Source: a virus
Virus record (IMG/VR): IMGVR_UViG_3300049825_000310
Location: 1 to 28,330 of that record
Reading direction: 5' to 3' (one strand)
Length of the DNA stretch: 28,330 nucleotides
This document shows positions 1,342-21,904 of this stretch, piece after piece. The position numbers and the translations under genes are program-made. Positions within the stretch are counted from its first letter, which is position 1. Each line of letters starts with the position of its first letter. The notes below the pieces were generated by a model. It was not told where the DNA came from, searched no databases, and saw nothing but the letters and a program-made list of their open reading frames with translations.

Positions 1342-1932
1342 ATGAGCACAAAAGATACTGTAATCGCAAAATTCAAAGATATTCTTTCTAAAAACCCATT
1401 CTTGAAACTTGCCGCTGCTGAAGGTTTAGAGCCTGCGGCACCCGTTGAGTTCAAAGCCACCGCAAAGTTAGCCGATGGAACGGAGATACAAAGCACTGCG
1501 GATTCTTTTGCTGTAGGTTCTGATGTTATGGTAGACGGTGCGCCTGCTGCGGATGGTGAATACATCATGGAAGATGGAAGCGCAATCGTTGTTGCAGGTG
1601 GATTAGTTACGGAAGTAAAGGAAGCCACACCAACGGACATGACGAGCGAACAACTATTGGCCGCTATCTCTGAATTATCAGAGCAACACAAAACACTTTC
1701 GGAAACTTTGACCGCTAAACAAGCTGAGTTGGAAGTATTGACCGCAAAGGAAAAATCAACCAACACTGAGTTGGCTATTGCTAAAGCCGAGGTTGCACGT
1801 TTGAGCGCATTACCTGCTGCTGCAAGTGTTACCGATGTTGCATTAGCTGCTTCAAAACAAAAAGAAAAGCCATCTAAAACATGGGCAGAAATGAACGCAA
1901 TTGAGCGCATGATTTCTTTGAAAAATAACTAA
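1342..1932 (+). CDS. Capsid scaffold-like protein
   Basis: The ATG at 1342 is preferred over an in-frame upstream ATG at 1309, which only adds residues in the leader. It gives 196 residues. The protein is acidic and Ala/Glu/Thr-rich. Residues about 35-90 look like small beta repeats (LADGTEIQSTADSF, then YIMEDGSAIVV), residues about 95-150 form a predicted coiled coil, and there is a short conserved-looking tail (WAEMNAIERMISLKN). It lies directly before the major capsid gene. A coiled-coil acidic protein just upstream of the capsid gene is the usual place and shape for a scaffold or capsid-assembly protein in Bacteroidetes phages. The role is inferred from context. No protease motif is visible. 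Confidence 0.65.
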   Translation: MSTKDTVIAKFKDILSKNPFLKLAAAEGLEPAAPVEFKATAKLADGTEIQSTADSFAVGSDVMVDGAPAADGEYIMEDGSAIVVAGGLVTEVKEATPTDMTSEQLLAAISELSEQHKTLSETLTAKQAELEVLTAKEKSTNTELAIAKAEVARLSALPAAASVTDVALAASKQKEKPSKTWAEMNAIERMISLKNN

Positions 1933-1971
1933 GTTCATATCAACCAATAAAATAAAAATCAATCCAATAAA

Positions 1972-2868
1972 ATGGCAACAACTCTTAATCTTACCGAGAC
2001 ATACGATGGCGAATTAGCCGGACAAATCCTCGTTAATGCACTCATCACAAATGAGTCAATGCAGCACGTTACGTTGAAAGAAGATATCGCGTACAAAGAA
2101 AAGGTGCGTAAAATGGAAATGGATGTGGTTATAGGTCCAATAACCTGTGACTTCACACCAACAGGCTCTGTTACATTATCAGAGCGTGAACTTGTTTTGG
2201 AAGGTTTCCAAACGCAAGGCCAACTTTGTAAAAAAGATTTTCTACGGGATTGGACTGCGCGCGATGCACAGAACAATATGTTGAATGGTCAATTGCAAGG
2301 AGGCATAGGTGACTATGTTGCACTAGCTATCGCTGCTAAAAATGAGCGCATCATGTGGCAAGGTGTAGATGCAACGGTTGGCGAATATAACGGATTTATA
2401 ACGCTATTCAATTTGGATGGAACTATTAACTCTGTTGCTTCTCCTGTGGCACTTACAAAAGCGAATATTATCGACAAGATAGAATTGCTTTTGGCTGAGG
2501 TTCCAACTGAGATTGAGAACGCCACCGAAAAGCCTATGGTGTACATGAACAATAAAACGTTCCACATATACCGTCAAGCAAACGTTGCAACTGGTAACGG
2601 TTGGAATACATACAACGGACCAGCTGTAGACAAATCATTCATGGGTATCTATGATATTGTTATTTGCCCGGGAATGACTGACAATACCATGGTAGTTGCT
2701 CAGAAATCAAATCTTTGGTTTGGTACTAACAAAGCAAGCGACATGAACTCTATCAAAACAAAAGATATGAGCGATGTTGATTTGAGTAACAATGTTAGAT
2801 GGACAGCGCAGTGGTTTGCTGGCTTGCAGTATGGTTTCGGTAACGAGATTGCACTTTACACAGTTTAA
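1972..2868 (+). CDS. Major capsid protein (HK97-fold type)
   Basis: This 298-residue protein has the size and layout of an HK97-fold capsid protein of Bacteroidetes phages. It has a helical N-terminus (residues 1-45), a strongly conserved-looking middle (MDVVIGPITCDF, ERELVLEGFQTQGQLCKKDF) and a C-terminal stretch typical of the P/A domains (MVYMNNKTFHIYRQ, GIYDIVICPGM, VVAQKSNLWFGT, WFAGLQYGFGNEIALYTV). It follows the scaffold-like gene and precedes a G/C hairpin that may end part of the transcript, as is common after abundantly expressed capsid genes. Family recognition is from memory. Confidence 0.85.
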   Translation: MATTLNLTETYDGELAGQILVNALITNESMQHVTLKEDIAYKEKVRKMEMDVVIGPITCDFTPTGSVTLSERELVLEGFQTQGQLCKKDFLRDWTARDAQNNMLNGQLQGGIGDYVALAIAAKNERIMWQGVDATVGEYNGFITLFNLDGTINSVASPVALTKANIIDKIELLLAEVPTEIENATEKPMVYMNNKTFHIYRQANVATGNGWNTYNGPAVDKSFMGIYDIVICPGMTDNTMVVAQKSNLWFGTNKASDMNSIKTKDMSDVDLSNNVRWTAQWFAGLQYGFGNEIALYTV

Positions 2869-2885
2869 GATTTTCCAATAACAAC

Positions 2886-2906
2886 GGGGGTTTAATCGCC
2901 CCCTTT
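2886..2906 (+). terminator. Hairpin terminator after the capsid gene
   Basis: GGGGG (2886-2890) pairs with CCCCC (2899-2903) around an 8-nt loop, followed by TTT then an A/T run. It lies 18 nt after the capsid stop and just before the next start, so it is likely leaky and sets relative expression. Confidence 0.65.
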
Positions 2907-2921
2907 AATAAAAAATAAAAC

Positions 2922-3464
2922 ATGGCGTGTATATTAACACAAGGATTTACAACATCGTGCTTAGATGGCGTTGGTGGTATCTCTGAGGTATTTGTTGCGA
3001 ATTGGGATAACTTTGATTCAGGCATTACAACTGACCCAACAAGCGGTGAAATAGATGGACTTCCAACTGCTACGCTTTATCGCTATGTAGGATTGAAGGC
3101 TTCAATGTCATTGGATGATACACCGAAACCTGATGTTGGAAACGGAACAATTTTCTACGAACAGAAAGTTGCTATTCGTATAGGTGGTTTGAGTTCTGCT
3201 AAGTCGAAAGAAATCACAACGCTTGCAAAAGCTAAGTTGATAATCTTTGTTCGCACAAACAAGAACCAAATACTTTGCATCGGCAAACAAAATGGTGCGT
3301 TCTTAACCGGTGGAGCAGGTGGCGCAGGAAAAGCACTAGGTGACTTCAACGGTTACGAGTTAGAATTTACTGCTGAAGAGCCGACCATGGCATTGTTTGC
3401 AGAAGCATACACGGCCGTTCCATTTGACAACTTCGCAGGCATAACATTAAGCCCTCTATACTAA
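2922..3464 (+). CDS. Putative major tail (tube) or virion protein
   Basis: This 180-residue protein starts MACILTQGFTTSCLDGVGGI. An N-terminal pattern of this kind (short leader, Cys, DGVGGI, then VFVANWDN) recurs in Bacteroidetes phage virion proteins beside the capsid gene. The rest is mixed beta, with IFYEQKVAIRIGGLS at about 80-95 and a Gly-rich loop near 128-137. It is flanked on both sides by hairpin terminators, which suggests its own high-level expression and fits a major structural subunit. Tail-tube identity is inference. A capsid accessory protein is the alternative. Confidence 0.55.
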   Translation: MACILTQGFTTSCLDGVGGISEVFVANWDNFDSGITTDPTSGEIDGLPTATLYRYVGLKASMSLDDTPKPDVGNGTIFYEQKVAIRIGGLSSAKSKEITTLAKAKLIIFVRTNKNQILCIGKQNGAFLTGGAGGAGKALGDFNGYELEFTAEEPTMALFAEAYTAVPFDNFAGITLSPLY

Positions 3465-3513
3465 GACCCGTTCTGTTTTCATCTTTCATATAAGTTTTAA
3501 TTGTTTCAAAATA

Positions 3514-3544
3514 GGCGGGCCTCAAAACTCGCCTTTTTTGTTTT
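3514..3544 (+). terminator. Rho-independent terminator
   Basis: GGCGGG (3514-3519) pairs with CTCGCC (3528-3533), one G-T pair, around an 8-nt loop, followed by TTTTTT, G and TTTT. It lies 50 nt after the stop at 3464 and only a few bases before the next start at 3549. Confidence 0.8.
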
Positions 3545-3548
3545 AAGA

Positions 3549-3938
3549 ATGAAATATCTAATACCAAATACAAGCGGTCAGACGCTATATGCTACACTCA
3601 AAGAGGGTGAAGTAATACTTGGTGCATCATACACAAATTACTTGCTTGTAATAACCCGCGATGAGAATTATAGCGATGGTGAAAGTATAGCGCAGGTGCC
3701 AGTGGTAGTGATAGACAATGAAAGGTTCACACAATTAACAGTTACCACTGTGGGTTTAACTGCTCCAGGCGCTCACACATACAAAGTTTACGGACAAAAT
3801 TCGGCAGTTAATACGGATCCAACTTCATTATTGGTAGTTGGTTTAATCGAGATGGGTTCAATAATTTTAACGGACGATGCTGAATATTTCACACCGTCAA
3901 TTTCAACAATAGAAAACGATGTTAGAAGCAGACAATAA
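3549..3938 (+). CDS. Small virion-module protein, unknown
   Basis: The ATG at 3549 is chosen because the upstream in-frame codons run through the terminator hairpin. The product is 129 residues, mostly beta, with a hydrophobic core of alternating residues (YLLVITRDENY, VPVVVIDNERF, HTYKVYGQNS). It overlaps the portal start by 20 nt, so the two are translationally linked. I do not recognise the family. The position between a virion protein and the portal suggests a capsid decoration or fibre-like role, which is only a guess. Confidence 0.7.
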   Translation: MKYLIPNTSGQTLYATLKEGEVILGASYTNYLLVITRDENYSDGESIAQVPVVVIDNERFTQLTVTTVGLTAPGAHTYKVYGQNSAVNTDPTSLLVVGLIEMGSIILTDDAEYFTPSISTIENDVRSRQ

Positions 3939-5934
3939 AAATAAAGTGCATAGCATTTCATTGGCTCAGTATTCGCCACAGAACTATTCTGAGGGTGAAG
4001 ATAACAAAGGCGTGGTGCACTATGGCAATGATAATAATTTTCCGTTGTACTTGGCTGAGTTGCACGAAACAACGCCCGTGCATGGCCCTTTGTGTACTTC
4101 ACTTGCCACAATGATTTCGGGCAAAGGATTTGAAACTAAAGACGCGAAACTTAATCAACGTGTAATTGCTCACGGCCTTTCTGACTTACTTCCTAAAGTA
4201 GGTAGTGACTTGAAAATATACGGTGGTTTCTTCACTGAAATCATTTATTCTACCGATAGAAAAACGGTTGCTAAAATAAAATACCATCCATACCATTGGT
4301 GCCGTTTGGGCATTGACAAAACAACTGGCGAAGTAGTGGGCGTTTGGATAAGTCGTGATTGGACAAGCACGGGCAAGGTTAGAAATAGACCAGTATTCGT
4401 GCCTCGTTTCAATCCTGCATTTAAAGAAGAACAACCAAATCAAATATTATTTACTCAGTTGCCGGTTGTTGGTAACGGATATTATGCTAAACCTGATTAT
4501 TGGCCTGCAGTAAACTATTTAGAGTTGGCCCGTCAAATTGGAATTTACCATGTGAATAATATTCTGAATGGTTTCTTTCCATCGTTTATGGTGTCGTTCT
4601 TTAATGGTGTGCCTGACGAAGAAAGTCAAAGAGGTGTGCGTAGGTCATTTGAAAAGTCGGCAAGCGGTGCAAAGAACGCGGGAAAGATGCTGATCACATT
4701 CAATGAAAGTGGTGTGACGCCTCCAAAGGTTGACCTCATGCCAATGACGGATGCAGATAAGCAGTACGACCTATTGAACAAACAAAGTGTTTCGCATATC
4801 ATGGTCGCCCACCGTGTTACAACTCCAAGATTATTTGGAATAGGTGACACTGGCAACGGTTTAAGTTCAAACACTGATGAAATGAAACAAGGGTTGGAGA
4901 TATTGAACACTCAGGTAATCAAACCATATCAAAGTTTGATTTGCAAACATTTTGAAACCATATACCAAGCAGAAAGTATCAATGGCACGCTCGAAATTAT
5001 ACCAAATGCACCAATAGACTTTATGAGCGATGAGCATACGGGTGTAAATGCTGCGTCACTTGCTCTTAATGGTGCTCAAATTGATTCTTTGATTAACATA
5101 ATACTACAAGTTGCAACGGGTGTTCTTACTCCTGAAACGGGCCGCGCAGTAATGAAGGCAGGTTTCCCTCAGTTGAAGAAAAAACAACTTGATGACATAT
5201 TTGAAACCGTTATTCCTGCAAGCGTAAACCCAACAGAGGTGTTGCAAAGCGTTGTTCGGTTTAGAAAAATAATGATGTCTAATGAATATATATCAAGCGA
5301 TACGCCAGTTTCTGAACCGCCCGTGGTGGCACCTAAATTAAGCGCAGAACCTGGAGCGGAATTAATCGCACTAGGTGAAGACGTGCCCAATGGTTATTTT
5401 ATTCTCGATGCATACAAAGTAAACGATGATGATGATGATGCTGAAAACGCAAGCCTTGAAAGTGTAAACTTATCAGTGAGCGCAGGCACGGCAAGGCCTA
5501 ATGCAAAGAGTGAGCAAGATAAAAAGATTGACAATAAACTGTTCATCACTCGTTACCGTTACAAGGGCGAAAGTTCGGACAACACTCGCGCTTTCTGCAA
5601 GAATATGGTGTCGGCCAACAAACTCTATCGCAAAGAAGATATAGTTCAAATGGAGAACCGCGCAGTCAACCCGGGATGGGGACCGAAAGGTTCGGACACT
5701 TACAATATATTTTACTTCAAAGGCGGTGGCGAATGTCATCATTTTTGGCAAAAAGAAGTGTATGTAAGTGCTGAAGGTTTGGGCATAGATGTGAACAACC
5801 ACAACGCAAGAAAAGAAGCTGTTGCCAAAGCAGAAAAGCAAGGCTACAAAGTGCGAAACGAAAAGCAAGTGGCACAACTTCCCGTTGATATGCCTTTCAA
5901 TGGATTTTTACCTGATAACCCTCGATTCAATTAA
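3919..5934 (+). CDS. Portal protein with C-terminal MuF-like extension
   Basis: This 671-residue protein forms the dodecameric ring through which DNA enters the capsid. Residues about 1-480 have portal character: VVHYGNDNNFPLYLAEL near the N-terminus, then GKGFETKD, a TEIIYSTDRKTVAKIKYHP stretch, and the stem/crown region with THRVTTPRLFG-like sequence around 295-310. A linker containing five consecutive Asp codons follows near residue 505. The last ~150 residues carry SDNTRAFCKNM, YRKEDI, GGGECHHFW and a basic tail. The spacing R-x-F-C ... E-D-I ... GG-x-x-C-x-H-x-W resembles the C-terminal cysteine/histidine module of phage minor head (MuF-like) proteins. The start at 3919 overlaps the previous gene by 20 nt. 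Confidence 0.82.
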   Translation: MLEADNKNKVHSISLAQYSPQNYSEGEDNKGVVHYGNDNNFPLYLAELHETTPVHGPLCTSLATMISGKGFETKDAKLNQRVIAHGLSDLLPKVGSDLKIYGGFFTEIIYSTDRKTVAKIKYHPYHWCRLGIDKTTGEVVGVWISRDWTSTGKVRNRPVFVPRFNPAFKEEQPNQILFTQLPVVGNGYYAKPDYWPAVNYLELARQIGIYHVNNILNGFFPSFMVSFFNGVPDEESQRGVRRSFEKSASGAKNAGKMLITFNESGVTPPKVDLMPMTDADKQYDLLNKQSVSHIMVAHRVTTPRLFGIGDTGNGLSSNTDEMKQGLEILNTQVIKPYQSLICKHFETIYQAESINGTLEIIPNAPIDFMSDEHTGVNAASLALNGAQIDSLINIILQVATGVLTPETGRAVMKAGFPQLKKKQLDDIFETVIPASVNPTEVLQSVVRFRKIMMSNEYISSDTPVSEPPVVAPKLSAEPGAELIALGEDVPNGYFILDAYKVNDDDDDAENASLESVNLSVSAGTARPNAKSEQDKKIDNKLFITRYRYKGESSDNTRAFCKNMVSANKLYRKEDIVQMENRAVNPGWGPKGSDTYNIFYFKGGGECHHFWQKEVYVSAEGLGIDVNNHNARKEAVAKAEKQGYKVRNEKQVAQLPVDMPFNGFLPDNPRFN

Positions 5935-5937
5935 GCC

Positions 5938-6492
5938 ATGGCCGTATCATTTCCAGCTAAAACGCTAATCATAGATGAAAATTACATAAAGAAGAACAGT
6001 GCTTTGAATGGTTCTGTTGATGCTAATTTAATTTATGCAGCCATGTATGTGGCTCAAATTAAAAACGTGCAACCGTATTTGGGCACGGCCTTATATGAAA
6101 AGATTTTATCAGACATTGCTGGCGGTACACTTGCTGGTGATTACTTGGACCTAGTCACAAAGAAATTAGCAGACGTTTGCTGTTGGTGGACTATGATTGA
6201 GTTGATACCAAAGCTCACATACAAGTATGACAATGGCAGTTTACAACAAAGAATTTCAGAAGATAGCACGCCTATAAGCGATGCGCAAATGAAGGATGAA
6301 ATAGACCGCGCAAGGCACAATGCTGAGTTCTTCACACGTAATTTAATTGACTACCTATGCGAAAATTCAAGTTTGTTTCCTGAGTATTCTCAAAGCGTAT
6401 CACCATGCAAATACCCACTTAAAAGAGTGCGCGTTGCCACATCATTCATGTTCACATTTACAAACGAAAATAATAATTGTTGCAATGATTAA
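5938..6492 (+). CDS. Putative head-tail connector protein
   Basis: This 184-residue, mainly helical protein begins 3 nt after the portal stop. It has a repeated helical region (NLIYAAMYVAQIKNVQPYLG, then LYEKILSDIAGG) and a conserved-looking middle with CCWWTMIELIPKLTYKYDNGS at about 82-102. Helical proteins of this size immediately after the portal usually serve as head-completion or connector proteins. The function is inferred from position and shape. The C-terminal Cys/Asn-rich tail (NNNCCND) is odd and overlaps the next start by 8 nt. Confidence 0.6.
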   Translation: MAVSFPAKTLIIDENYIKKNSALNGSVDANLIYAAMYVAQIKNVQPYLGTALYEKILSDIAGGTLAGDYLDLVTKKLADVCCWWTMIELIPKLTYKYDNGSLQQRISEDSTPISDAQMKDEIDRARHNAEFFTRNLIDYLCENSSLFPEYSQSVSPCKYPLKRVRVATSFMFTFTNENNNCCND

Positions 6493-6751
6493 ATCCTTAG
6501 TACGTGGCCAAGTAGTCACAATTTTAAAACGCTCAAATGGTTACGAATACCTTCGTGAAGGCGATATAGTAATAGATGAACCATTAACACTTCACCCAAG
6601 CGGACAAGCTGTTACCTGCACCATAGATATATGCGATGTGGTGGCTAACTGCGATGTGGTGTTGAATGACAAAGCATACATAACTGACGAACACCCGTTT
6701 GTGTTTCCTGAGTTGGTAGGAGGCAGACCTAGAAATATTGTACGAAGATGA
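6485..6751 (+). CDS. Small conserved-type protein, unknown
   Basis: The ATG at 6485 overlaps the end of the upstream gene and gives 88 residues. A longer in-frame reading from 6347 would lie wholly inside the upstream gene and is rejected. The protein has a beta-rich N-terminus (VRGQVVTILKRSNGYEYLREGDIVI), two CD-containing segments (TIDICDVVANCDVVL) and an Arg-rich end. No family recognised. It overlaps the next ORF by 4 nt (ATGA), so it belongs to the same translational chain. Confidence 0.65.
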   Translation: MIKSLVRGQVVTILKRSNGYEYLREGDIVIDEPLTLHPSGQAVTCTIDICDVVANCDVVLNDKAYITDEHPFVFPELVGGRPRNIVRR

Positions 6752-7122
6752 ACCAAAAAACATTCGCTGCATTTTTAGTTAGCTTACTAGCACTATGCAC
6801 ATGGATGTTTGGTTATATCCTAGTTGCCTATACATTTCATCATCCATACTTTGTCACGGATATATTCGTCACTGATATGTGGATGCTTAGTGATGCGATA
6901 GCCAAGTGCTTAATCATTGTTGTTCTATTAATGCTTACTACTGGATACTTTCATCAATGGTTGATGTTTGTTTTTTCTGTTGCCGTAAATAATTTACTCG
7001 ATGAATTATGGTTTGACCCTTACACACTAGGGTTAAACGAAGCTGCTATTACTGTTTTGCTTGCTGTTTATTACACCACACAAATCAACAAGGCTTTGTA
7101 TGCAGCAAGACGACATCAATGA
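6748..7122 (+). CDS. Integral membrane protein, possible lysis accessory
   Basis: This 124-residue protein has about four hydrophobic segments, at roughly 6-28, 45-66, 68-84 and 98-115, with short polar connections. It starts in an ATGA overlap and is overlapped by the next gene. It stands first of three membrane proteins directly before the endolysin, so a holin or holin-accessory role is plausible, but nothing in the sequence proves it. Confidence 0.65.
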   Translation: MNQKTFAAFLVSLLALCTWMFGYILVAYTFHHPYFVTDIFVTDMWMLSDAIAKCLIIVVLLMLTTGYFHQWLMFVFSVAVNNLLDELWFDPYTLGLNEAAITVLLAVYYTTQINKALYAARRHQ

Positions 7123-7429
7123 AATTCTAACTAAAAACGGTGTACCTATAATGAGTGCAATAACCGCTACTGTTGCAAAAGTATCACACACGATAATGAA
7201 TAACAGAAAACTATCATTTGCAAAGTGGTGTGCCATTATATCCATATCGTTATTTTGGGCGTGGATGGCCGGCTTGTTTTGTGCTTGGAAGGGATTTGAT
7301 ACACTTCTTACATCTATGGTCGTAGGCCTTTCTACGTTGCTAGGAGAGCGAATCAATGTGTACATAAGCGAAAACTATAAAGTCATATTTGATAAACTAC
7401 TTTCAATATTTACAAGTAACAAAAAATGA
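7100..7429 (+). CDS. Membrane protein, possible holin-type
   Basis: The ATG at 7100 is preferred to an in-frame upstream start at 7061 because it gives the shorter 23-nt overlap with the previous gene. The 109-residue product has a polar N-terminal helix, then hydrophobic segments at about 40-62 (AIISISLFWAWMAGLF) and 65-82, and a basic Lys-rich end. One polar start, two hydrophobic helices and a charged tail is a common class II holin layout. It overlaps the next gene by 4 nt. Confidence 0.6.
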   Translation: MQQDDINEILTKNGVPIMSAITATVAKVSHTIMNNRKLSFAKWCAIISISLFWAWMAGLFCAWKGFDTLLTSMVVGLSTLLGERINVYISENYKVIFDKLLSIFTSNKK

Positions 7430-7965
7430 AAAAACCATTCAAAGACACGGGCGTTGGTAAGTTCCTGCGCGAAAAAGTAGCGCCAATAGCAGGCGATGTA
7501 CTTACAATAGTAGGAGACATAACTGGGCGTGAAAGCATCGAAAAGATAGGCCAACTATTGAACGATAAGAAAGAACAAAGCGCAGAAGCCATGGCCCTGC
7601 ACATGGAGTTCGAGAAGTACAAGTTGGAATGGGAATTGGAACTGCAACGCCTGGAGCTGGATATATTCAAAACTGAATTAGCAGATCGCGAAAGTGCCCG
7701 TGCCCGTGAAATACAATATATGCAGGCCAACGGTGGTAAGCGTGATTGGTTAATGGGCTCGGCTGTTGCTGTTGCTCTTATCATGTACGTTTGTGCATTT
7801 GCGTTTCTAGCTTATGGACCCGTTGTTCCTGATGGAAAGAAAGATTTGTTCAACATGGGCGTTGGCCAAGTATTCACATTTGCCGGCATGGTGTTCGCTT
7901 ATTACTTAGGCACAACTAAAAGTTCACGCACCAAAGATGAAACCATTGCAAGCGCTATAAAATGA
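7426..7965 (+). CDS. Holin-like protein with coiled coil and two TM segments
   Basis: This 179-residue protein has a basic amphipathic N-terminus, a long coiled coil at about 50-100 (Glu/Leu/Lys-rich), the ADRESARAREIQYMQ stretch typical of phage proteins of this type, then two membrane segments at about 109-129 and 143-161 and a short charged tail. The layout (helical cytosolic part, RDW, two TM helices, YYLGTTKSS end) resembles the three-TM holins of phages and gene-transfer agents. It lies immediately upstream of, and overlaps by 4 nt, the endolysin gene. Confidence 0.65.
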   Translation: MKKPFKDTGVGKFLREKVAPIAGDVLTIVGDITGRESIEKIGQLLNDKKEQSAEAMALHMEFEKYKLEWELELQRLELDIFKTELADRESARAREIQYMQANGGKRDWLMGSAVAVALIMYVCAFAFLAYGPVVPDGKKDLFNMGVGQVFTFAGMVFAYYLGTTKSSRTKDETIASAIK

Positions 7966-8420
7966 ACCGCGTAAAGATTACCGATAACTTTTACCTCGAT
8001 GAGTTTATACCACCCGAAATATATTCGGTGCGCGGTGCTGCTTCCATTGAGTTATTGGATATTCGGATAATCGCGGGAGTGCAATTCCTACGCGAAAAGG
8101 CTGAGGCAAAGTATGGTGCCAGTGTTTCATTCACTGTAAATAATTGGTACAACAAAGGCACACGCCACGAAAGTGGTTTAAGGCTGCCAAATACACACAC
8201 TGGAGCCAAATGGAGCCAACATAAGTACGGCAGGGCAGTTGACATAGTGCCAAGGGGTTTGAGCGTTGCACAGATATTTGAAATCGTAAAAGAGAATGAG
8301 AGGTATTTATTAGACAGCGGGTTTATAACCACCGTAGAAAATATTGCCTTTACTAAAACTTGGCTTCATGTGGATTGCAGATACACCGGATTGGATAATT
8401 TACGGATTGTCAACCCTTAG
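7962..8420 (+). CDS. M15-type peptidase endolysin
   Basis: This 152-residue protein has the zinc-peptidase motifs of the M15 family: SQHKYGRAVDIVP at about 85-97 supplies the first His and Asp ligands, and KTWLHVDCRY near the end supplies the second His with its following Asp. The N-terminus (NFYLDEFIPP) is typical of phage M15_3 enzymes that cut peptidoglycan cross-links. No signal peptide is present, so it needs the upstream holin-type proteins for export. The 3' end overlaps the convergent minus-strand gene by 21 nt. Confidence 0.88.
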   Translation: MNRVKITDNFYLDEFIPPEIYSVRGAASIELLDIRIIAGVQFLREKAEAKYGASVSFTVNNWYNKGTRHESGLRLPNTHTGAKWSQHKYGRAVDIVPRGLSVAQIFEIVKENERYLLDSGFITTVENIAFTKTWLHVDCRYTGLDNLRIVNP

Positions 8421-8640: not shown

Positions 8641-8865
8641 TTAAAAAGGTATTGCTTGTTTCTTAAATTGTTTTAATGTCGGTCTAATCTTATCCAGCGA
8701 TTTGAATTTTCCGTCTATTATGTAGCCTATGGTACATCGTTTCGTTACTTGTTTAATCAGTTTACCGCTCTTTGAATTATAACACAATCCGCACTCAGTA
8801 AACCAATAATGTGGGTCATTATCAAGGTGCCATTTTGCAACATATTTTACAGTGAAATCGGGCAT
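8641..8865 (-). CDS. Small conserved-type phage protein
   Basis: This 74-residue protein contains a central CGLCYNSKSGKLIKQ segment and a C-terminal IGYIIDGKFKSLDKIRPTL segment. The combination (N-S-K-x-G-K-x-I-K ... G-Y-x-I-x-G-K-F) looks like a recurring small protein of Bacteroidetes phages, with the feel of an AP2/NUMOD-type DNA-contact module, but I cannot assign a function. Its start codon is only 10 nt from the attI-like site that begins cassette array A, so its native upstream sequence has been replaced by the array. Confidence 0.6.
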   Translation of the reverse strand: MPDFTVKYVAKWHLDNDPHYWFTECGLCYNSKSGKLIKQVTKRCTIGYIIDGKFKSLDKIRPTLKQFKKQAIPF

Positions 8866-8875
8866 TTGCGTGGGT

Positions 8876-8901
8876 GTAAAGTTTCGCCAATCGACAAGTT
8901 A
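8876..8901. repeat. attI-like site, left edge of cassette array A
   Basis: A 26-bp sequence beginning GTAAAGTTTCGCC and ending CGACAAGTTA is repeated exactly at 17009-17034, where array B begins. Identity stops at the base after GTTA, the expected crossover core (G^TTA). The CGCCAA before the core resembles the L' arm of the complete attC-like sites at 9228 and 17414. It therefore behaves like a simple attachment site (attI) or a half attC. Confidence 0.65.
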
Positions 8902-9156
8902 GGCGAAACCTTTCTCCACCCTGTTACGAATAGCGCCCCAATCCATCATACTATTTTGTAAAGCAGTTATTCGCTCTCCATCATAGAATTGCATTTCATT
9001 AATTTGTTTCTGTTTATCCTGTATCATTTCTTCACAAAATAGTATTGCTCCGATTTGACCTTTTTCTTTCGTAAGGTCATATGCTTGTTCATCCCACCGA
9101 AAGGCATCGCCTAACACGGGTTTGGCAAAAAAGCCGTTTTGTTCTTCGTTTGACAT
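8899..9156 (-). CDS. Cassette A1 protein, unknown
   Basis: This 85-residue protein has a polar N-terminus, a Trp/Asp-rich middle and helical stretches (GAILFCEEMIQDKQKQINEMQ). The stop codon TAA lies in the recombination core GTTAGGC at 8898. The start codon lies inside the attC-like site to its right, so the first ~15 residues (with FFAKPVLGD) are encoded by attC arms. Function unknown. Small Trp-rich helical proteins of this kind are common products of integron cassettes and phage accessory genes. Confidence 0.6.
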   Translation of the reverse strand: MSNEEQNGFFAKPVLGDAFRWDEQAYDLTKEKGQIGAILFCEEMIQDKQKQINEMQFYDGERITALQNSMMDWGAIRNRVEKGFA

Positions 9157-9236
9157 ATTGTTCTAATTTTTAAGTTTTGTAATTCGATTTAACTTCTCGT
9201 TTCGGCTTCTTCGCCAAGCCCCAAAACGTTATAGCC
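9107..9236. repeat. attC-like site A1
   Basis: On the plus strand the order is R'' GCCTAAC (9109-9115), 5-nt spacer, L'' TTTGGC (9121-9126), about 86 nt, L' GCCAAG (9213-9218), 9-nt spacer CCCCAAAAC, then core GTTATAGCC (9228). The arms extend to about 15 bp (TTGGCAAAAAAGCCG against CGGCTTCTTCGCCAA, two mismatches). R'' complements the GTTAGGCG that starts this cassette at 8898, as expected for an integron cassette. Confidence 0.72.
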
Positions 9237-9238
9237 AA

Positions 9239-9502
9239 TTAAGAAGAAGACAGTTCATAATCTCCGTGAGTTGGACTATATACTTCTAATTTTGGCGATT
9301 TTAATAATTCCTTCATATTTTCTGCACTACCAATAGCTTGTCCATTTATATACCAATACCAAATCATTCTACCTACTGTTTTATGTTGCCAAGTTAATGT
9401 TGGTCTGTGTATTTTTAAGTCAACCGTTAATTTTTCTTCTAATCCACACAAATCACAATCTTTTTTTATTTTATCAATCAGCTTTTGTCTAATACTACTC
9501 AT
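9239..9502 (-). CDS. Cassette A2 protein, unknown
   Basis: This 87-residue protein has a basic helical N-terminus (SSIRQKLIDKIKKDCDLCGLEEK), a beta middle (TWQHKTVGRMIWYWYINGQ) and a C-terminal KLEVYSPTHGDYEL. No domain recognised. Start and stop both lie inside the cassette: the stop is 11 nt from one core (GTTATAGCC at 9228) and the start is about 9 nt from the matching R'' (9511-9520). That is the classic tight fit of a gene in an integron cassette. Confidence 0.6.
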   Translation of the reverse strand: MSSIRQKLIDKIKKDCDLCGLEEKLTVDLKIHRPTLTWQHKTVGRMIWYWYINGQAIGSAENMKELLKSPKLEVYSPTHGDYELSSS

Positions 9503-9510
9503 AAATTAAC

Positions 9511-9620
9511 TGGCTATAACAGCACATTTGAGAAATTAAAAATGGCATTTAGTTTAGTATTTAAATTGAGCTGTGAAGTAGCCATTTTTAACTTCACAAA
9601 TCTGCAAAACGTTAGGCGAA
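9511..9620. repeat. attC-like site A2
   Basis: The clearest hairpin of the array. R'' TGGCTATAAC (9511-9520), spacer AGCAC, then L'' ATTTG starting at 9526, with a ~21-bp imperfect stem (9526-9546 against 9581-9601, two mismatches). L' CAAAT (9597-9601) is followed by the 9-nt spacer CTGCAAAAC and core GTTAGGCG (9611). R'' is the exact complement of the cassette's own first bases, GTTATAGCCA at 9228. Confidence 0.78.
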
Positions 9621-9623
9621 ATG

Positions 9624-9902
9624 CTAAAGAACATTCCACTGCTTTAATAAATCTTTCTGACTTTGTTTTAAGTTGGACATTTTCACAACCGTATCATCAT
9701 AGTTTCTGTCAGTTGAAACTACTACAAATCCGCTTTTGTCCTGTAAATCTTTTATTGGATTTTGCCAACACATTGATTGATATGCACCGCTAAAATGTCC
9801 AACATAAGCTAATTCTCTTTTTTGCTTTTCGGTAAGCACTTCGCCTAACAGCACATTTGCAATAGGCGGGGTTTCGTGGTTTAATGATGTTTTCGTTTCC
9901 AT
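9624..9902 (-). CDS. Cassette A3 protein, unknown
   Basis: This 92-residue protein begins METKTSLNHETPPIANVLL, nearly the same as the A4 protein, because both N-termini are encoded by near-identical attC-like sequence. The unique body has QSMCWQNPIKDLQDKSGFVVVSTDRNYDD and a Lys-rich end. No domain recognised. The stop is 13 nt from the core GTTAGGCG at 9611. Whether the real start is the ATG inside the attC-like site or one further in is open. Confidence 0.55.
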   Translation of the reverse strand: METKTSLNHETPPIANVLLGEVLTEKQKRELAYVGHFSGAYQSMCWQNPIKDLQDKSGFVVVSTDRNYDDTVVKMSNLKQSQKDLLKQWNVL

Positions 9903-9978
9903 ATAAAATTTTATTTTAAGTTGATAATTTCGTTTTCAAAAGTCCCACCCATCGCAAATCCCTAATCCGTTATGTGCA
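9841..9978. repeat. attC-like site A3
   Basis: R'' TTCGCCTAAC (to 9849), spacer AGCAC, L'' ATTTGC (9855-9860), about 93 nt, L' GCAAAT (9954-9959), 9-nt spacer CCCTAATCC, core GTTATGTGC (9969). R'' complements GTTAGGCGAA at 9611. The stem continues inward with several G-T pairs. About 110 nt are nearly identical to site A4, so the two share a recent common origin. Confidence 0.72.
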
Positions 9979-10266
9979 AGTAAACCAACCACGCCCAGAC
10001 AACACACTTTCATCGTTGTAAGTTTCTTTAAGTTCAACCTTATCTTGTTTGGCTAAATCCTTCATCGCTTGTTTTATCTCTTTAATTTCTGCTACTATCC
10101 CGTTTTCGTGCAATTGGTCTTTTAGGGCATCATAGCCAAACCAATACGCTTCAAATTCTCCTGTTCTATTTCCCCAATCATTCCGCAACACATCTAAAAT
10201 GCCTGCACATAACAGCAGATTTGCAATAGGCGGGGTTTCGTGGTTTAATGATGTTTCATGTTCCAT
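9970..10266 (-). CDS. Cassette A4 protein, unknown
   Basis: The ATG at 10266 gives 98 residues. An in-frame TTG at 10320 is less likely. The N-terminus (MEHETSLNHETPPIANLLL) is encoded by attC-like sequence and mirrors A3. The body (DVLRNDWGNRTGEFEAYWFGYDAL, then EIKEIKQAMKDLAKQDKVELK) is different and mostly helical. The stop TAA lies in the core GTTATGTGC at 9969. No family recognised. Confidence 0.55.
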   Translation of the reverse strand: MEHETSLNHETPPIANLLLCAGILDVLRNDWGNRTGEFEAYWFGYDALKDQLHENGIVAEIKEIKQAMKDLAKQDKVELKETYNDESVLSGRGWFTCT

Positions 10267-10340
10267 ATAAAGTTTTATTTTAAGTGATAAATTCGTTTTC
10301 AAAACTCCCACCCATCGCAAATCTGCGGAGCGTTATGTGC
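10203..10340. repeat. attC-like site A4, right edge of array A
   Basis: R'' GCACATAAC (10205-10213), spacer AGCAG, L'' ATTTGC (10219-10224), about 92 nt, L' GCAAAT (10317-10322), 9-nt spacer CTGCGGAGC, core GTTATGTGC (10332-10340). R'' exactly complements the core at 9969 that opens the cassette. The following 52 bases to the next gene end hold nothing I recognise. Confidence 0.75.
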
Positions 10341-10392: not shown

Positions 10393-10983
10393 TTAAAGAG
10401 TTAAAGGAGGTATTTCATTCGTATCGTGTGCACCGTGCTTCAGAACTTCTTCTTCGGCTCTTATGTATCGGTACTGAGTGAAGTCGAAATCCACATGGCC
10501 GTAAATTCTAAATCTAGGCGTTACGGAAGACATTGGAAGTCTATCCCATTCATCTTGGACCATCTTTTCAAACGGTGAAAGTTTTACTATCTTCATGTCC
10601 ATTGGTTTTTCAGTGTGTACTAGCTTGTCGGTTACTTCTTTTAAAATTTCATTCATTTGAGGGTTTTGGAATAGCGTGTAAATATTGTTTGCCTCAACAT
10701 CCTTGTCGCGCTTCCTGGCTATTGCAATATCTCTTTCCTTTTCAAATTTACTTAAAAAAGAAAAAATAGTTGGTCTATCCATGCGGTTAAAAATATCACC
10801 GTAATTGCCAGCTAATACATTCCGTAGGCATAAATCAATATCATCTAACTTCAGCATCCACTTATCATTCACTATGGCCTCTGCGCATGATACTATTTGC
10901 TGCCCGTTCATGTTTCTATCAATATTCAACTCACTGCAAAACCTCGTAATCAGTAAAGTCACCTTCGCCACCGTTGTTGCCAT
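10393..10983 (-). CDS. Replication-module protein, helicase-loader-like
   Basis: The ATG at 10983 gives 196 residues. A start at 11124 would overlap the upstream gene by 194 nt and is rejected. ATG 10914, just after the upstream stop, is an alternative but would remove the conserved-looking ITRFCSELNID. The protein has a helical N-terminal half with NMNGQQIVSCAEAIVND, DIDLCLRNVLAGNYGDIFNRMDRPTI and a very basic helix. This pattern recurs in Bacteroidetes phage proteins that follow a replisome organizer. A role as helicase loader or replication partner is inference from order. Confidence 0.6.
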   Translation of the reverse strand: MATTVAKVTLLITRFCSELNIDRNMNGQQIVSCAEAIVNDKWMLKLDDIDLCLRNVLAGNYGDIFNRMDRPTIFSFLSKFEKERDIAIARKRDKDVEANNIYTLFQNPQMNEILKEVTDKLVHTEKPMDMKIVKLSPFEKMVQDEWDRLPMSSVTPRFRIYGHVDFDFTQYRYIRAEEEVLKHGAHDTNEIPPLTL

Positions 10984-11836
10984 GTCCACTTTCCGGAGGG
11001 TGCTCAGTGGTTTGTCCTGACTGGTCAAATTTGTTTCTAAGGATAGCGTGGGCTTCGGCTGCCACGCCTGCGGCATCAAATCGCTGCTTAGAGCCATGGC
11101 CGTTGTTTTGTTTGGTGTTTCCATTTTTTATTGAAGATATTATATTTATCAAATTTGAGTTGATTTGCTCCAGTTTCAGTTGCTTTTGGTGGAAAGAATC
11201 CCACTTTTCATAATTATGCAAAACATACTTCCAAGCTTGTATGTTTTGTTTGTTCAACTCATCACCATCCAAGTTTGGATGTGAGTTTTTTACTTGCTCA
11301 CGAAGGTAAAGAATTATTTTCTGCAATGCAGTACGCCCTTGCACTGAAAATTGTTCGGTGGTTCCAGTTCTTGATTTTAGAAAATCATTGTAAACATCAA
11401 GAAAAAGTTGATTTGGAACTGTGCTTTTTGTTTCGCGCGGTTTTTTTTCTTTTTCTTTTTTATCTTCTTTTTTATTTTCTTCTTCATATTCAAGCTTAAA
11501 GCAAGCTTGGTTCAAGCTTGAATTTAAAAAAAGATTATGTTTATCTAATGCTCTAAATGTAGGTTTATGAGGATTGTAACCTTCTTTTAATGAAACAAAA
11601 TTAACTTCAATGTAGTCGGTTAATAAAACTTTACCGTCTGCAATTTTAACCACATTTGGAATTTTCAATAATTCGTTAAACTGAATAGAGAACCCATTGT
11701 CTACGTTGAAATATTCAGTGTCAAATTCATAAACTCCGGCAGCATCTGATTTATCCCAAATATAAAACCAAGCTTGCTTCAAGCTTGATTCAAGCTTGCG
11801 TAAAGCTTTCCAATCCGGATTTATAAATTTTTTCAT
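10931..11836 (-). CDS. Replisome organizer / replication initiator-like protein
   Basis: This 301-residue protein has an N-terminal stretch (residues 1-105) of winged-helix type with SSLKQAWFYIWDKSDAAGVYEFD and FNELLKIPNVVKIADGKVLLTDY. A Lys/Glu linker follows at 115-135, then a helical region at about 140-210, and a Gly/His/Asn-rich low-complexity tail. This layout is typical of phage initiators that bind the origin and recruit helicase. The gene itself contains two groups of 11-bp-spaced CAAGCTTG boxes, as expected if the origin lies inside the initiator gene, as in lambda O. It starts in an ATGA overlap with the small gene upstream. Confidence 0.65.
   Translation of the reverse strand: MKKFINPDWKALRKLESSLKQAWFYIWDKSDAAGVYEFDTEYFNVDNGFSIQFNELLKIPNVVKIADGKVLLTDYIEVNFVSLKEGYNPHKPTFRALDKHNLFLNSSLNQACFKLEYEEENKKEDKKEKEKKPRETKSTVPNQLFLDVYNDFLKSRTGTTEQFSVQGRTALQKIILYLREQVKNSHPNLDGDELNKQNIQAWKYVLHNYEKWDSFHQKQLKLEQINSNLINIISSIKNGNTKQNNGHGSKQRFDAAGVAAEAHAILRNKFDQSGQTTEHPPESGHGNNGGEGDFTDYEVLQ
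11491..11520. repeat. Iteron-like boxes, group 1
   Basis: CAAGCTT(A), CAAGCTTG and CAAGCTTG begin at 11491, 11502 and 11513, exactly 11 bp apart, so they lie on one face of the helix. Confidence 0.7.
11769..11798. repeat. Iteron-like boxes, group 2
   Basis: Three perfect CAAGCTTG palindromes begin at 11769, 11780 and 11791, again with exact 11-bp periodicity. At the protein level both groups encode a related SSL-x-QA segment, so part of the similarity could be coding duplication. Confidence 0.7.
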
Positions 11837-16948: not shown

Positions 16949-17008
16949 GTTTTATTTTGTATTTAATTTGCAACACTTTTCATAGTGTTTATAAGTGTTT
17001 GCGTAAGA

Positions 17009-17034
17009 GTAAAGTTTCGCCAATCGACAAGTTA
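17009..17034. repeat. attI-like site, left edge of cassette array B
   Basis: Exact second copy of the 26 bp at 8876-8901, again ending at the core GTTA. The flanks differ completely (t before it there, a here; g after it there, t here), so this is a site shared by two loci and not part of a larger duplication. Confidence 0.65.
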
Positions 17035-17043
17035 TGTGCAAGG

Positions 17044-17286
17044 CTAAGAACAGAGCAAATCAGACAATTCATTGTGCTTTTTAATTAGCCATTCTTTTGC
17101 TAATCTTTTACCATCTTCTAAATCGTAACCTTCTCCAATATATTCGTTTCCAATAGTTACTGAATAGCTGTCACTTTGTTTCCATCCTTTCCATTCAATT
17201 AAACATTGTCCTAATGGGGTTTCAGAAATAACGTGGTCATAAGTGCTAACGTCTTTTGTTGGTTGTTTTGGTTCTGTCCAATTCAT
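17044..17286 (-). CDS. Cassette B1 protein, unknown
   Basis: This 80-residue protein has Pro/Thr/Lys at the start, then ISETPLGQCLIEWKGWK, SYSVTIGNEYIGEGYDLEDGK and an amphipathic helix. It looks like a small alpha/beta protein of the sort found in phage accessory genes, with no function known to me. The stop lies 13 nt from the cassette core at 17031 and the start about 40 nt from the matching R''. Confidence 0.6.
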   Translation of the reverse strand: MNWTEPKQPTKDVSTYDHVISETPLGQCLIEWKGWKQSDSYSVTIGNEYIGEGYDLEDGKRLAKEWLIKKHNELSDLLCS

Positions 17287-17325
17287 TTCATTTTTAAATT
17301 AAATTTAGTGCTGATAAACCGCCCA

Positions 17326-17422
17326 GCACATAACAGCGGTTTGGCAAAAGCTGCCAGAAAGTTTTGTGCGAATATTGAGCATCCGTTAGGCAGCCTTCGC
17401 CAAGCCACAAAACGTTAACGGC
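17326..17422. repeat. attC-like site B1
   Basis: R'' GCACATAAC (17326-17334), spacer AGCGG, L'' TTTGGC (17340-17345) continuing as AAAAGCTGCC, then a short loop, GGCAGC and L' GCCAAG (17399-17404), 9-nt spacer CCACAAAAC, core GTTAACGGC (17414). The stem is about 16 bp with few mismatches. R'' complements GTTATGTGC at 17031. Confidence 0.78.
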
Positions 17423-17426
17423 AACC

Positions 17427-17726
17427 CTAAGTAACATCACCCGAAAGTTTAATGTGCTTTACAACTGATTCCCATATTTTAAAAATTTCATATTCATAGT
17501 ATGACATTATATTAGCAACACCATCTTTATAAATATCATCCTTTTGAGAAATCTTTTTCATTACAGGAATAAGCCAATTCCAATCACTATGAAATTTAAG
17601 TTCCCCAACTGGCAATCCGTTTTTTTCATCGCACCACATTTTTTCACTTTCAGGAGTATATGATTTTTGAGTGAGATTTAGGAATTTAGCAATTAACTCA
17701 TTCCCGTTTTTTATTTCTTGTTCCAT
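17427..17726 (-). CDS. Cassette B2 protein, unknown
   Basis: This 99-residue helical protein has aromatic stretches (KMWCDEKNGLPVGELKFHSDWNWLIPVMKKIS, in part) and IMSYYEYEIFKIWESVVKHIK. The DW-W-L-x-P-V-x-x-K-I element recurs in small proteins of Bacteroidetes and phage cassettes. Function unknown. The stop is 13 nt from the core GTTAACGGC at 17414. Confidence 0.6.
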   Translation of the reverse strand: MEQEIKNGNELIAKFLNLTQKSYTPESEKMWCDEKNGLPVGELKFHSDWNWLIPVMKKISQKDDIYKDGVANIMSYYEYEIFKIWESVVKHIKLSGDVT

Positions 17727-17769
17727 TGTATTTGTTTAAATTATTAATAATAATTCCGAATGAAGGGCA

Positions 17770-17794
17770 GCCGATAACATAGGGTTGGCAATTA
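17770..17794. repeat. Collapsed attC-like site B2 (left half only)
   Basis: R'' GCCGATAAC (17770-17778; one mismatch to the complement of the cassette core GTTAACGGC), spacer ATAGG and L'' GTTGGC (17784-17789) are present. The loop and the L'/R' half are missing. The sequence runs directly into TTATTTTTTGC, where the next gene's stop codon lies. Confidence 0.5.
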
Positions 17795-18058
17795 TTTTTT
17801 GCTACGTTCTGCACAAAATTTACAGTTCTGTTTATGTACAATACCACCAGCATATGCATAATTCCAAACAACATATTCACAACTGTCAATCTGTACTACT
17901 TGGACATCGCCAGTTTCTATGCTTTGTATTTGATTTAATGGTTTTTGTTCTTTTTGTTGTTCGGAATTACTGCTTCCACAACCGCAAAAAATAACAGCTA
18001 CTAACAGCACATAAGCAAAAGCAAAAGTTCTGCGGTAAATGGATGTTCTCGTTTTCAT
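17792..18058 (-). CDS. Cassette B3 lipoprotein
   Basis: This 88-residue protein has a signal peptide with a lipobox: basic MKTRTSIYRR, hydrophobic FAFAYVLLVAVI, then FCGC, with the lipid-bearing Cys at about residue 25. A polar linker (Ser/Gln/Lys-rich) follows, then SCEYVVWNYAYAGGIVHKQNC with KFC after it, a recurring small fold with a C-terminal H-x3-C-x2-C motif. The signal peptide overlaps attC-like site B3. Phage lipoproteins sometimes exclude superinfecting phage, a possible role here without direct evidence. Confidence 0.7.
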   Translation of the reverse strand: MKTRTSIYRRTFAFAYVLLVAVIFCGCGSSNSEQQKEQKPLNQIQSIETGDVQVVQIDSCEYVVWNYAYAGGIVHKQNCKFCAERSKK

Positions 18059-18132
18059 ATTATATTCTGTTTTTAAGTTAAAATTTTCGTTTCTAAATCT
18101 TTGCCTTCGCCTATCTGCAAAACGTTAGCGGT
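18001..18132. repeat. attC-like site B3
   Basis: CTAAC (18001-18005), spacer AGCAC, L'' ATAAGC (18011-18016), about 92 nt, L' GCCTAT (18109-18114; one mismatch), 9-nt spacer CTGCAAAAC, core GTTAGCGG (18124). The inward stem pairs about 10 of 13 bases. The R'' does not clearly complement the start of this cassette. A second nearby sequence, GCAAAAAATAAC at 17983-17994, does. Confidence 0.55.
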
Positions 18133-21083: not shown

Positions 21084-21865
21084 TAAAAGTAATACCTAGT
21101 AAAATAGCTAATGAATTTGTAAAAAAGCATCATTACAGTGGTAAAGTTGTTAATAAATCAAGTTTACATTTTGGTTGTTTTTTAGATAATAAATTACACG
21201 GAGTTTTAAGTTACGGTAGTCCTTTAGATAAATCAAAAGTTTTACCATTAGTTTATTCAGGCGATAAAAATAAAAATGAAAAATGGAATGAAATGCTTGA
21301 ACTTAATAGAATGGCATTTGATGACTATCTTCCAAAGTATTCAGAAAGTAGATGTATTGCGATTAGCATTAAATTAATTAAAAAAAATGCACCGCAAATA
21401 AAATGGTTGTTAAGTTTTTCAGATGGTACTCAATGCGGAGATGGTACAATTTACAGAGCAAGTGGGTTTAGTTTAACTCAAATAAAAATTAGTCAAAATG
21501 ATTTATGGGAATTACCAAATGAATTAGCATATTTAAGCAAGGGAAAACAAACAGTTCACAGAATTACAATACAATGCGGAACTTCATTAATTAGTAAATG
21601 GGTCATGAATAAATATAACAGGTTTACAATACCGTTAGAACAATTACAAAAAGAAAATGGTGGTAAATTGCAATCAGGAAACCAATTAAGATACATCTAC
21701 CTAATAGACAAAACTTGCAAAATAACCGTTCCAATATTACCATTTAGCAAAATAGATGAAATGGGAGCAGGAATGTACAAGGGAAAAAAGACTACTTTAG
21801 CCGAAAGAAAACTTTTACAAGCGGAGTTACCTCACAAGGGAGAGGATAGTGCAATCCAGCACTAG
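21059..21865 (+). CDS. Mom-like DNA-modification enzyme (GNAT fold)
   Basis: The ATG at 21059 gives 268 residues. The protein resembles the phage Mu Mom group: an early KKHHYSGK element (about 20-27), FGCFLDNKLHGVLSYGSPL, MLELNRMAFDDYLPKYSESRCIA (split over 79-101), WLLSFSDGTQCGDGTIYRASGF and LTQIKISQNDLWE. Mom adds a carbamoylmethyl group to N6 of adenine, which protects phage DNA from restriction. The gene is visibly more AT-rich than its neighbours, consistent with transfer. It overlaps the ParB-like gene 5' and a tRNA-like sequence 3', so the last ~15 codons may be read-through of RNA-gene sequence and the true end may be earlier. Confidence 0.72.
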   Translation: MGRAKEILVKVIPSKIANEFVKKHHYSGKVVNKSSLHFGCFLDNKLHGVLSYGSPLDKSKVLPLVYSGDKNKNEKWNEMLELNRMAFDDYLPKYSESRCIAISIKLIKKNAPQIKWLLSFSDGTQCGDGTIYRASGFSLTQIKISQNDLWELPNELAYLSKGKQTVHRITIQCGTSLISKWVMNKYNRFTIPLEQLQKENGGKLQSGNQLRYIYLIDKTCKITVPILPFSKIDEMGAGMYKGKKTTLAERKLLQAELPHKGEDSAIQH

Positions 21866-21891
21866 GGGGCGTTCGATTCGACCACTTCGCT
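21821..21891 (+). tRNA. tRNA-Gly-like sequence with abnormal anticodon loop
   Basis: A 71-nt cloverleaf: acceptor GCGGAGT/ACTTCGC (7 bp, one G-T), T8 A9, D-stem CCTC/GAGG with A14, GG and A21 in an 8-nt loop, A26, anticodon stem TAGTG/CACTA, a 2-nt variable loop, T-arm with TTCGATT and discriminator T. Glycine identity features are present: G1-C72, C2-G71, G3-C70, T73 and a TCC triplet. Oddities are an 8-nt anticodon loop (CAATCCAG) without the normal U33, a very short variable loop and a G-A mismatch at T-stem pair 51-63. No CCA is encoded. It may be a degenerate or a non-translating tRNA. Confidence 0.55.
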
Positions 21892-21904
21892 CAAATTATT
21901 AAGA

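Follow-up and report, generated by a model that had tools for sequence, protein, structure and literature searches.

Integron cassettes are already known in phages. The accessible part of Qi et al. 2023 (PMC9892861) describes CALINs in virulent phages, where cassettes bounded by attC occur with no integrase and include DNA methyltransferases. The arrays reported here resemble them in these respects, but the Bacteroidota site family and its recombinase are not described in that part of the paper, and we add reversed polarity, phage attI-like sites and cassette gain or loss among near-identical isolates. Chromosomal integrons of the Vibrio VCR type share with the Bacteroidota system a long (~125 nt) conserved attC, complementarity of each site to its own core, an attI beside the integrase and host genes in sense orientation. 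In contrast to the VCR type, the Bacteroidota integrase lacks patch III and its gene often reads toward the array, G.T wobbles replace extrahelical bases, and the spacers are 5 and 9 nt long. In classical attC sites, strand asymmetry is provided by extrahelical bases (PMC2727003).

On the enzyme side, an integron-like subgroup of tyrosine recombinases has been reported in which the IntI insert is not fully conserved (Smyshlyaev 2021, PMC8138268). The accessible part of that paper assigns no arrays to the insert-less members, whereas here such enzymes lie beside attI and attC arrays. An earlier integron survey required the IntI insert (PMC2426708), and the single complete integron that IntegronFinder 2.0 reported for Bacteroidetes proper is from Salinibacter (PMC9024848). 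Archaeal XerA and the XerC and XerD proteins are alike in the fold and length of the catalytic region, but the Bacteroidota recombinases group apart from XerD-like proteins and sit at cassette arrays, not at dif. No description of the Bacteroidota system or of reversed phage cassettes was found in the open-access literature searched, and within that literature both appear to be undescribed.

Two cassette arrays in a Bacteroidota phage

The stretch analyzed here (the window) is the full IMG/VR record IMGVR_UViG_3300049825_000310, which has 28,330 bases and is classed as linear. It encodes a terminase, a portal, NinG, an endolysin, an exonuclease and a Mom-like protein, and the named phages nearest to its terminase are Flavobacterium phage 11b (50%) and Cellulophaga phage phi10:1. 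The record is from a Bacteroidota phage and is probably incomplete. A search for viral relatives of the replication-side protein at 10931-11836 gave none, and ARAGORN places a tRNA of undetermined type at 21821-21892 (+), overlapping the end of the Mom-like gene.

An initial annotation had proposed that four small minus-strand genes are integron-like cassettes, each bounded by a GTTA core and a complementary R''. At the level of sequence, 8898-10332 is confirmed as an integron-style array of four cassettes (Table 1). All four boundary pairs are exact complements: GTTAGGCGA at 8898 and 9115 (GTTAGGCGA / TCGCCTAAC) for A1, GTTATAGCCA at 9228 and 9520 (GTTATAGCCA / TGGCTATAAC) for A2, GTTAGGCGAA at 9611 and 9849 (GTTAGGCGAA / TTCGCCTAAC) for A3, and GTTATGTGCA at 9969 and 10213 (GTTATGTGCA / TGCACATAAC) for A4. 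Core to core, the cassettes measure 330, 383, 358 and 363 bp, in line with the 330-380 bp first given. The L''/L' arms are present with 12-13 of 15 Watson-Crick pairs, and the constant 5-nt versus 9-nt spacers recur in the window sites. The site length of 110-140 nt had to be revised to 97-126 nt, and to 86 nt for one site in array B. Three of the four array A genes have their start codon within an attC.

Such exact boundaries are confined to the arrays. The R'' is complementary to the start of its own R' (G^TTRRRY), and exact GTTN6 inverted pairs spaced by 200-450 nt occur only five times in the whole window, four in array A and one in array B. In Markov-1 sequence of the same dinucleotide make-up, a mean of 1.1 such 9-base pairs is expected per whole window; for 10-letter words, three inverted pairs are observed against 0.17 expected.

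Table 1 Features of arrays A and B in the window
Feature	Position	Strand	Details
74-aa gene left of array A attI	8641-8865	-	homologues in two other viral contigs
attI-like site, array A	8873-8898	+	TTTGCGTGGGTGTAAAGTTTCGCCAATCGACAA|G^TTA; 34/37 nt as at array B left end
Cassette A1 (330 bp)	8899-9228	+	body 8899-9115; own attC 9112-9230 (+ orientation)
A1 gene	8899-9156	-	antisense; start codon within attC, stop codon within core
Cassette A2 (383 bp)	9229-9611	+	antisense gene 9239-9502 (-); own attC 9517-9613
Cassette A3 (358 bp)	9612-9969	+	antisense gene 9624-9902 (-), start codon within own attC 9846-9971
Cassette A4 (363 bp)	9970-10332	+	antisense gene 9970-10263 (-), start codon within own attC 10210-10334
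attI-like site, array B	16999-17031	+	sequence as in array A
Cassette B1	17032-17414	+	antisense gene 17044-17286 (-); own 86-nt phage-type attC 17331-17416
Cassette B2	17415-17778	+	antisense gene 17427-17726 (-); ends GTTAACGGC / GCCGATAAC, one mismatch
Cassette B3 region	17779-18126	+	antisense lipoprotein-like gene 17792-18058 (-); left end degenerate

A second array at 17031-18126 follows the same design with partly degenerate boundaries. The body of B1 has 87% identity with a cassette of another viral contig (L176), and the homology begins at G|TTA; between the two cassettes, R'' and R' have changed together (GTTATGTGC / GCACATAAC versus GTTATAGGTA / TACCTATAAC). The attC of B2 is not recognizable and has no match with the attC profile HMM described below. 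In B3 the start codon of the gene lies in the attC at 18002-18126 (HMM 32 bits), and part of the signal peptide of this lipoprotein-like gene is encoded by an attC. Neither Pfam nor PADLOC assigned a convincing function to any cassette gene of the window, and in PHROGs the B1 gene matches one family of unknown function.

Both arrays begin at one common attI-like sequence. With a position weight matrix built only from recombinase-adjacent host attI sites, the two copies rank 2-3 of 1261 GTT positions in the window, a moderate match given that two unrelated GTT positions score equally high; having the same sequence, the copies are not independent. The left-end sequence common to both arrays has no exact 25-mer match elsewhere in viral contigs. 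Homologues of the 74-aa gene to the left of array A adjoin an attI-like site with one cassette in one contig (L186) and a different cassette array in another (L282), so the position looks like a fixed landing place.

An attC family and an insert-less recombinase

Searched with 20 bases of one window site, public genomes gave at least 118 matching stretches, and among the matches listed all records are from Bacteroidota or Ignavibacteria; with 18 bases, 44 viral contigs matched. The majority of the matches are full sites ~86 or ~125 nt long whose outer cores vary. A profile HMM whose seed came exclusively from other genomes and viruses finds, in its second iteration, five window sites (9230-9112, 9971-9846, 10334-10210, 17416-17331 and 18126-18002; E 1e-7 to 1e-15), with 58 bits for A1 and 54 bits each for A3 and A4. 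The A2 site is too diverged for the HMM, yet it has the anatomy of the other sites and a good fold. Judged by these matches, the window sites belong to a Bacteroidota attC family present in >100 genomes and >40 viral contigs. The attC reading of the initial annotation is supported, but the cassettes are not of the canonical Proteobacteria type: the family is that of the Bacteroidota, its integrase is insert-less and the phage genes are reversed.

A hand-made attC scan with a strict R'/R'' consensus found no site, because the R'' of an integrated site pairs with the start of its own cassette and not with that of the next one. Across 123 cassettes, on average 8.1 leading bases are complementary to the own core compared with 4.2 for random partners, and 4.4 to the R' of the next cassette, as expected when cassettes join at G|TT. 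The arms behave in the same manner as a conserved stem. Window arms form 12.5 of 15 pairs (8.8 when shuffled), and among 52 diverse sites 89% of arm positions pair compared with 64% in shuffles (maximum 67%). The arms covary, with 171 double-change cells in these 52 sites against 52 in shuffles (maximum 70).

Almost all remaining positions of the window arms are A.C on the plus strand and G.T on the minus strand, at stem positions 7 and 10, so that the minus strand would form the long stem and the plus strand would not: the minus strand has a nearly unbroken 15-bp arm stem and the plus strand has A.C mismatches. The arms pair without gaps, with no extrahelical bases in the L'' arm and with central spacers of 5 and 9 nt. 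Single-strand folding, proposed as a check in the initial annotation, agrees: the minus strand is more stable in five of six window sites and in the sixth only by centroid, and the minus-strand folds of two of the six are clearly below shuffles. The minus-strand hairpin has z = -4.3 at A2 and z = -6.3 at A4. The same wobble asymmetry is seen in 107 host cassette sites versus 2 with the opposite one, and in 52 viral sites versus 1 (159 to 3 in total). As judged from predicted pairing, the attC-type strand asymmetry is reached by wobbles instead of extrahelical bases. At one locus (L002:1353-1725) a gene apparently lies within the loop of an attC-like site.

Beside the host arrays lies a site-specific recombinase, a relative of the integron integrases that is without their defining insert. 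In 17 of 20 host loci, attC sites are found no more than ~10 kb from it. The proteins are 340-470 aa long, and TIGR02249 (integron integrase) and NF040815 are better matches to them than XerC or XerD. Their TIGR02249 scores are 178-217 bits (cut-off 265 bits), in two stretches with a gap at positions 181-238, the insert region. The additional domain of IntI (patch III) is absent from the host recombinases, which are ~40 aa shorter there, and the spacing before the HxxR motif is 58-63 aa compared with 99-100 in IntI. In a tree rooted on Bacteroidota XerD-like proteins, the recombinases form a group beside IntI. A structure prediction (pLDDT 72, moderate) served solely to confirm the fold; XerA-type structures are the top scorers among solved structures. 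In NCBI, proteins of this kind already bear the name 'site-specific tyrosine recombinase/integron integrase', as does the one on a Chryseobacterium plasmid (NZ_CP041688.1, L272), where co-directional genes downstream of the recombinase extend to an IS110 and the reverse transcriptase of a group II intron.

The enzyme is carried by 129 of 247 evenly drawn Bacteroidia genomes. When 30 loci were drawn by recombinase, only 8 had a recognized attC within 1.5 kb, so other kinds of site or other functions may occur in this family. Ten host loci have an attI adjoining the integrase gene, and the window has attI-like sites only. In these ten, the first cassette begins 8-160 bp from the recombinase gene, often ~100 bp past its stop codon, at a motif TTGCGTATAT......A|GTT that ranks top in its own locus in 9 of 10 leave-one-out tests. 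The host attI beside the recombinase sets the attC orientation in the window as plus, and the minus-strand genes are therefore antisense to their attC. A minus-strand orientation, assumed from gene direction, was rejected on these grounds and also because the attC on the 5' side of a gene travels with that gene (L001/L002).

No recombinase of the insert-less family and no classical IntI over the cut-off is found in the window record. The absence of an integrase, noted as unusual in the initial annotation, holds for this record but is normal for its kind, as a full recombinase is found in only 4 of 37 viral records that have these sites, in a version shorter than the host enzymes. Given that the record is a 28-kb linear fragment, the window phage may also have a recombinase of its own. 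The viral recombinases form their own clade, and three of the four have sites of the attC family nearby. Three viral contigs (L234, L236, L237) combine an insert-less recombinase with an adjoining attI or attC array and are apparently complete phage integrons of the Bacteroidota attC family.

Polarity and exchange of phage cassettes

Host and viral cassettes differ in polarity. Host cassette genes are sense to their attC in 104 cases and antisense in 9 (n = 113), whereas viral ones are antisense in 57 and sense in 1 (n = 58; Fisher p = 1.6e-34, or 1.4e-21 with one per locus), both samples having been retrieved with a similar 18-20 base attC piece. The median cassette body is 960 bp in hosts and 286 bp in viruses. 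Full-length cassettes are shared 15 times among hosts and 13 times among viruses including the window, and none of the sampled cassettes is common to a host and a virus. By this sampling, phage cassettes are a separate pool from host cassettes.

Phage cassette genes run with the neighboring phage genes (112 long ORFs versus 17), and up to 22 of 58 viral cassette genes start within their own attC, some of them maybe upstream in-frame extensions. Host attC sites (L025-L142) carry a TAnnTTTG promoter-like motif toward the next cassette in 31 of 115 cases (4.7 expected); phage sites do not carry TAnnTTTG on the gene strand, and the Bacteroidota -7 promoter motif is not enriched there inside phage attC (1/59). 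Host cassettes may hence be read from the preceding attC, and phage cassettes would depend on the phage operon. Because that operon reads toward attI, only reversed cassettes would be useful to the phage. In phage cassette genes the distance between stop codon and far core is fixed at 16 nt (interquartile range 16-16), a 3' end conserved across unrelated genes, and many viral cassettes begin with GTTATGTGCAAG or GTTACCTGCAAG. A 642-kb uncultured phage (LR756502.1, L227) has one phage-type 86-nt attC at ~5001-5098 with an antisense cassette.

The Bacteroidota attC family is also carried by cultured Flavobacterium phages of the genus Muminvirus (mumin, filifjonk and tooticki). At 1648-8109 of their genomes (L283-L288) lie arrays of about a dozen cassettes, ~1/6 of the genome, and several of the cassettes, exchanged ones included, are DNA methyltransferases. 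These phages are 99.6-100% identical outside the differences, and whole cassettes are present or absent: one indel of 506 bp separates mumin6-1/6-2 from mumin6-3/6-4, and indels of 412 bp and 1581 bp separate filifjonk from mumin. Each indel junction has an equivalent cut range of 8-9 nt, which includes G|TT and does not fix it uniquely. The sequence of mumin, filifjonk and tooticki is common up to one attI and divergent from there. Cassettes common to unrelated viral contigs have 97-100% identity to the right of G|TT and 13-47% to the left in 7 of 9 comparisons. The comparison of breakpoints among related phages, called for in the initial annotation, thus came out in favor of cassettes, and it supports whole-cassette gain and loss at G^TT, as far as alignments place the junctions. 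The insert-less recombinase was not found in the complete genomes of cultured Muminvirus-type phages, which argues for an enzyme acting in trans.

Explanations and meaning

Both window regions are very probably phage integron-type arrays, recombined at G^TT by an insert-less Bacteroidota recombinase in trans. This reading builds on the boundaries, the covariation of arms and cores, the strand bias, the gain and loss among isolates, the adjacency of recombinase, attI and array in hosts and the reversed polarity, all observed as sequence features. Single-stranded attC sites would fold on one strand, the minus strand in the window, and the recombinase without patch III, supplied by the host or a co-infecting phage, would recombine them at G^TT. 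Arrays A and B would each start at their attI-like site and take up short, one-gene cassettes antisense to the attC. Behind a phage attI, such a gene becomes co-directional with the phage operon, which would drive its expression, and it may serve fitness, as the DNA methylation genes of the cultured phages could.

It is improbable that the arrays are instead ordinary CALINs, canonical attC cassettes moved by the classical IntI of a host with nothing specific to Bacteroidota. The attC logic is the same (R'', L'', L', R', G^TT), phage CALINs have been published, and the accessible part of Qi et al. reports that, of six phage attC sites tested, five were recombined by IntI1, a Polaribacter phage site among them (PMC9892861). 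However, not one of 28 attC-bearing Bacteroidota genomes exceeds the TIGR02249 cut-off, the enzyme that adjoins the arrays is a separate clade without the insert, and the 5- and 9-nt spacers and the wobbles in place of extrahelical bases depart from canonical attC. The Polaribacter phage P12002L, tried as a family member and rejected on a weak HMM match, has no convincing site of the Bacteroidota attC family.

We give still less credence to homologous or illegitimate recombination between stem-loop repeats, with no recombinase, even though attC-like repeats resemble one another and phage genomes are mosaic. The two ends of the 506-bp mumin indel share only ~8 nt (AACGTTA), too little for homologous recombination; three phage species carry different cassettes from the same attI; R'' and R' are complementary within a cassette and not between neighbors; and host arrays adjoin a recombinase. 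That the hairpins serve small phage genes as regulatory RNA or DNA elements, such as terminators or RNA stability elements, and are not recombination sites is hardly credible. Each does lie between genes, and two of six fold clearly below shuffles on the minus strand, but an Rfam scan gave zero matches, start codons lie inside the hairpins, and identical cassettes in unrelated phages end sharply at G|TT.

Beyond the window, we consider it likely that a phylum-wide, insert-less Bacteroidota integron exists together with a separate, polarity-reversed cassette pool that passes between phages, is recombined in trans by host- or phage-borne enzymes and serves phages as a common modular stock of accessory genes, DNA methyltransferases among them. 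On this phylum-wide reading, an integrase without the IntI insert would be missed by current integron finders. Since about half of the sampled Bacteroidia genomes carry the candidate enzyme, and many carry arrays, a large reservoir of cassettes has probably escaped notice. With the insert-less enzyme, the need for patch III in single-stranded attC recombination becomes testable, and the wobble pairs can now be tested as setters of strand choice. The cultured Flavobacterium phages, with natural cassette swaps that often involve methyltransferases, offer a laboratory system for integron exchange in phages.
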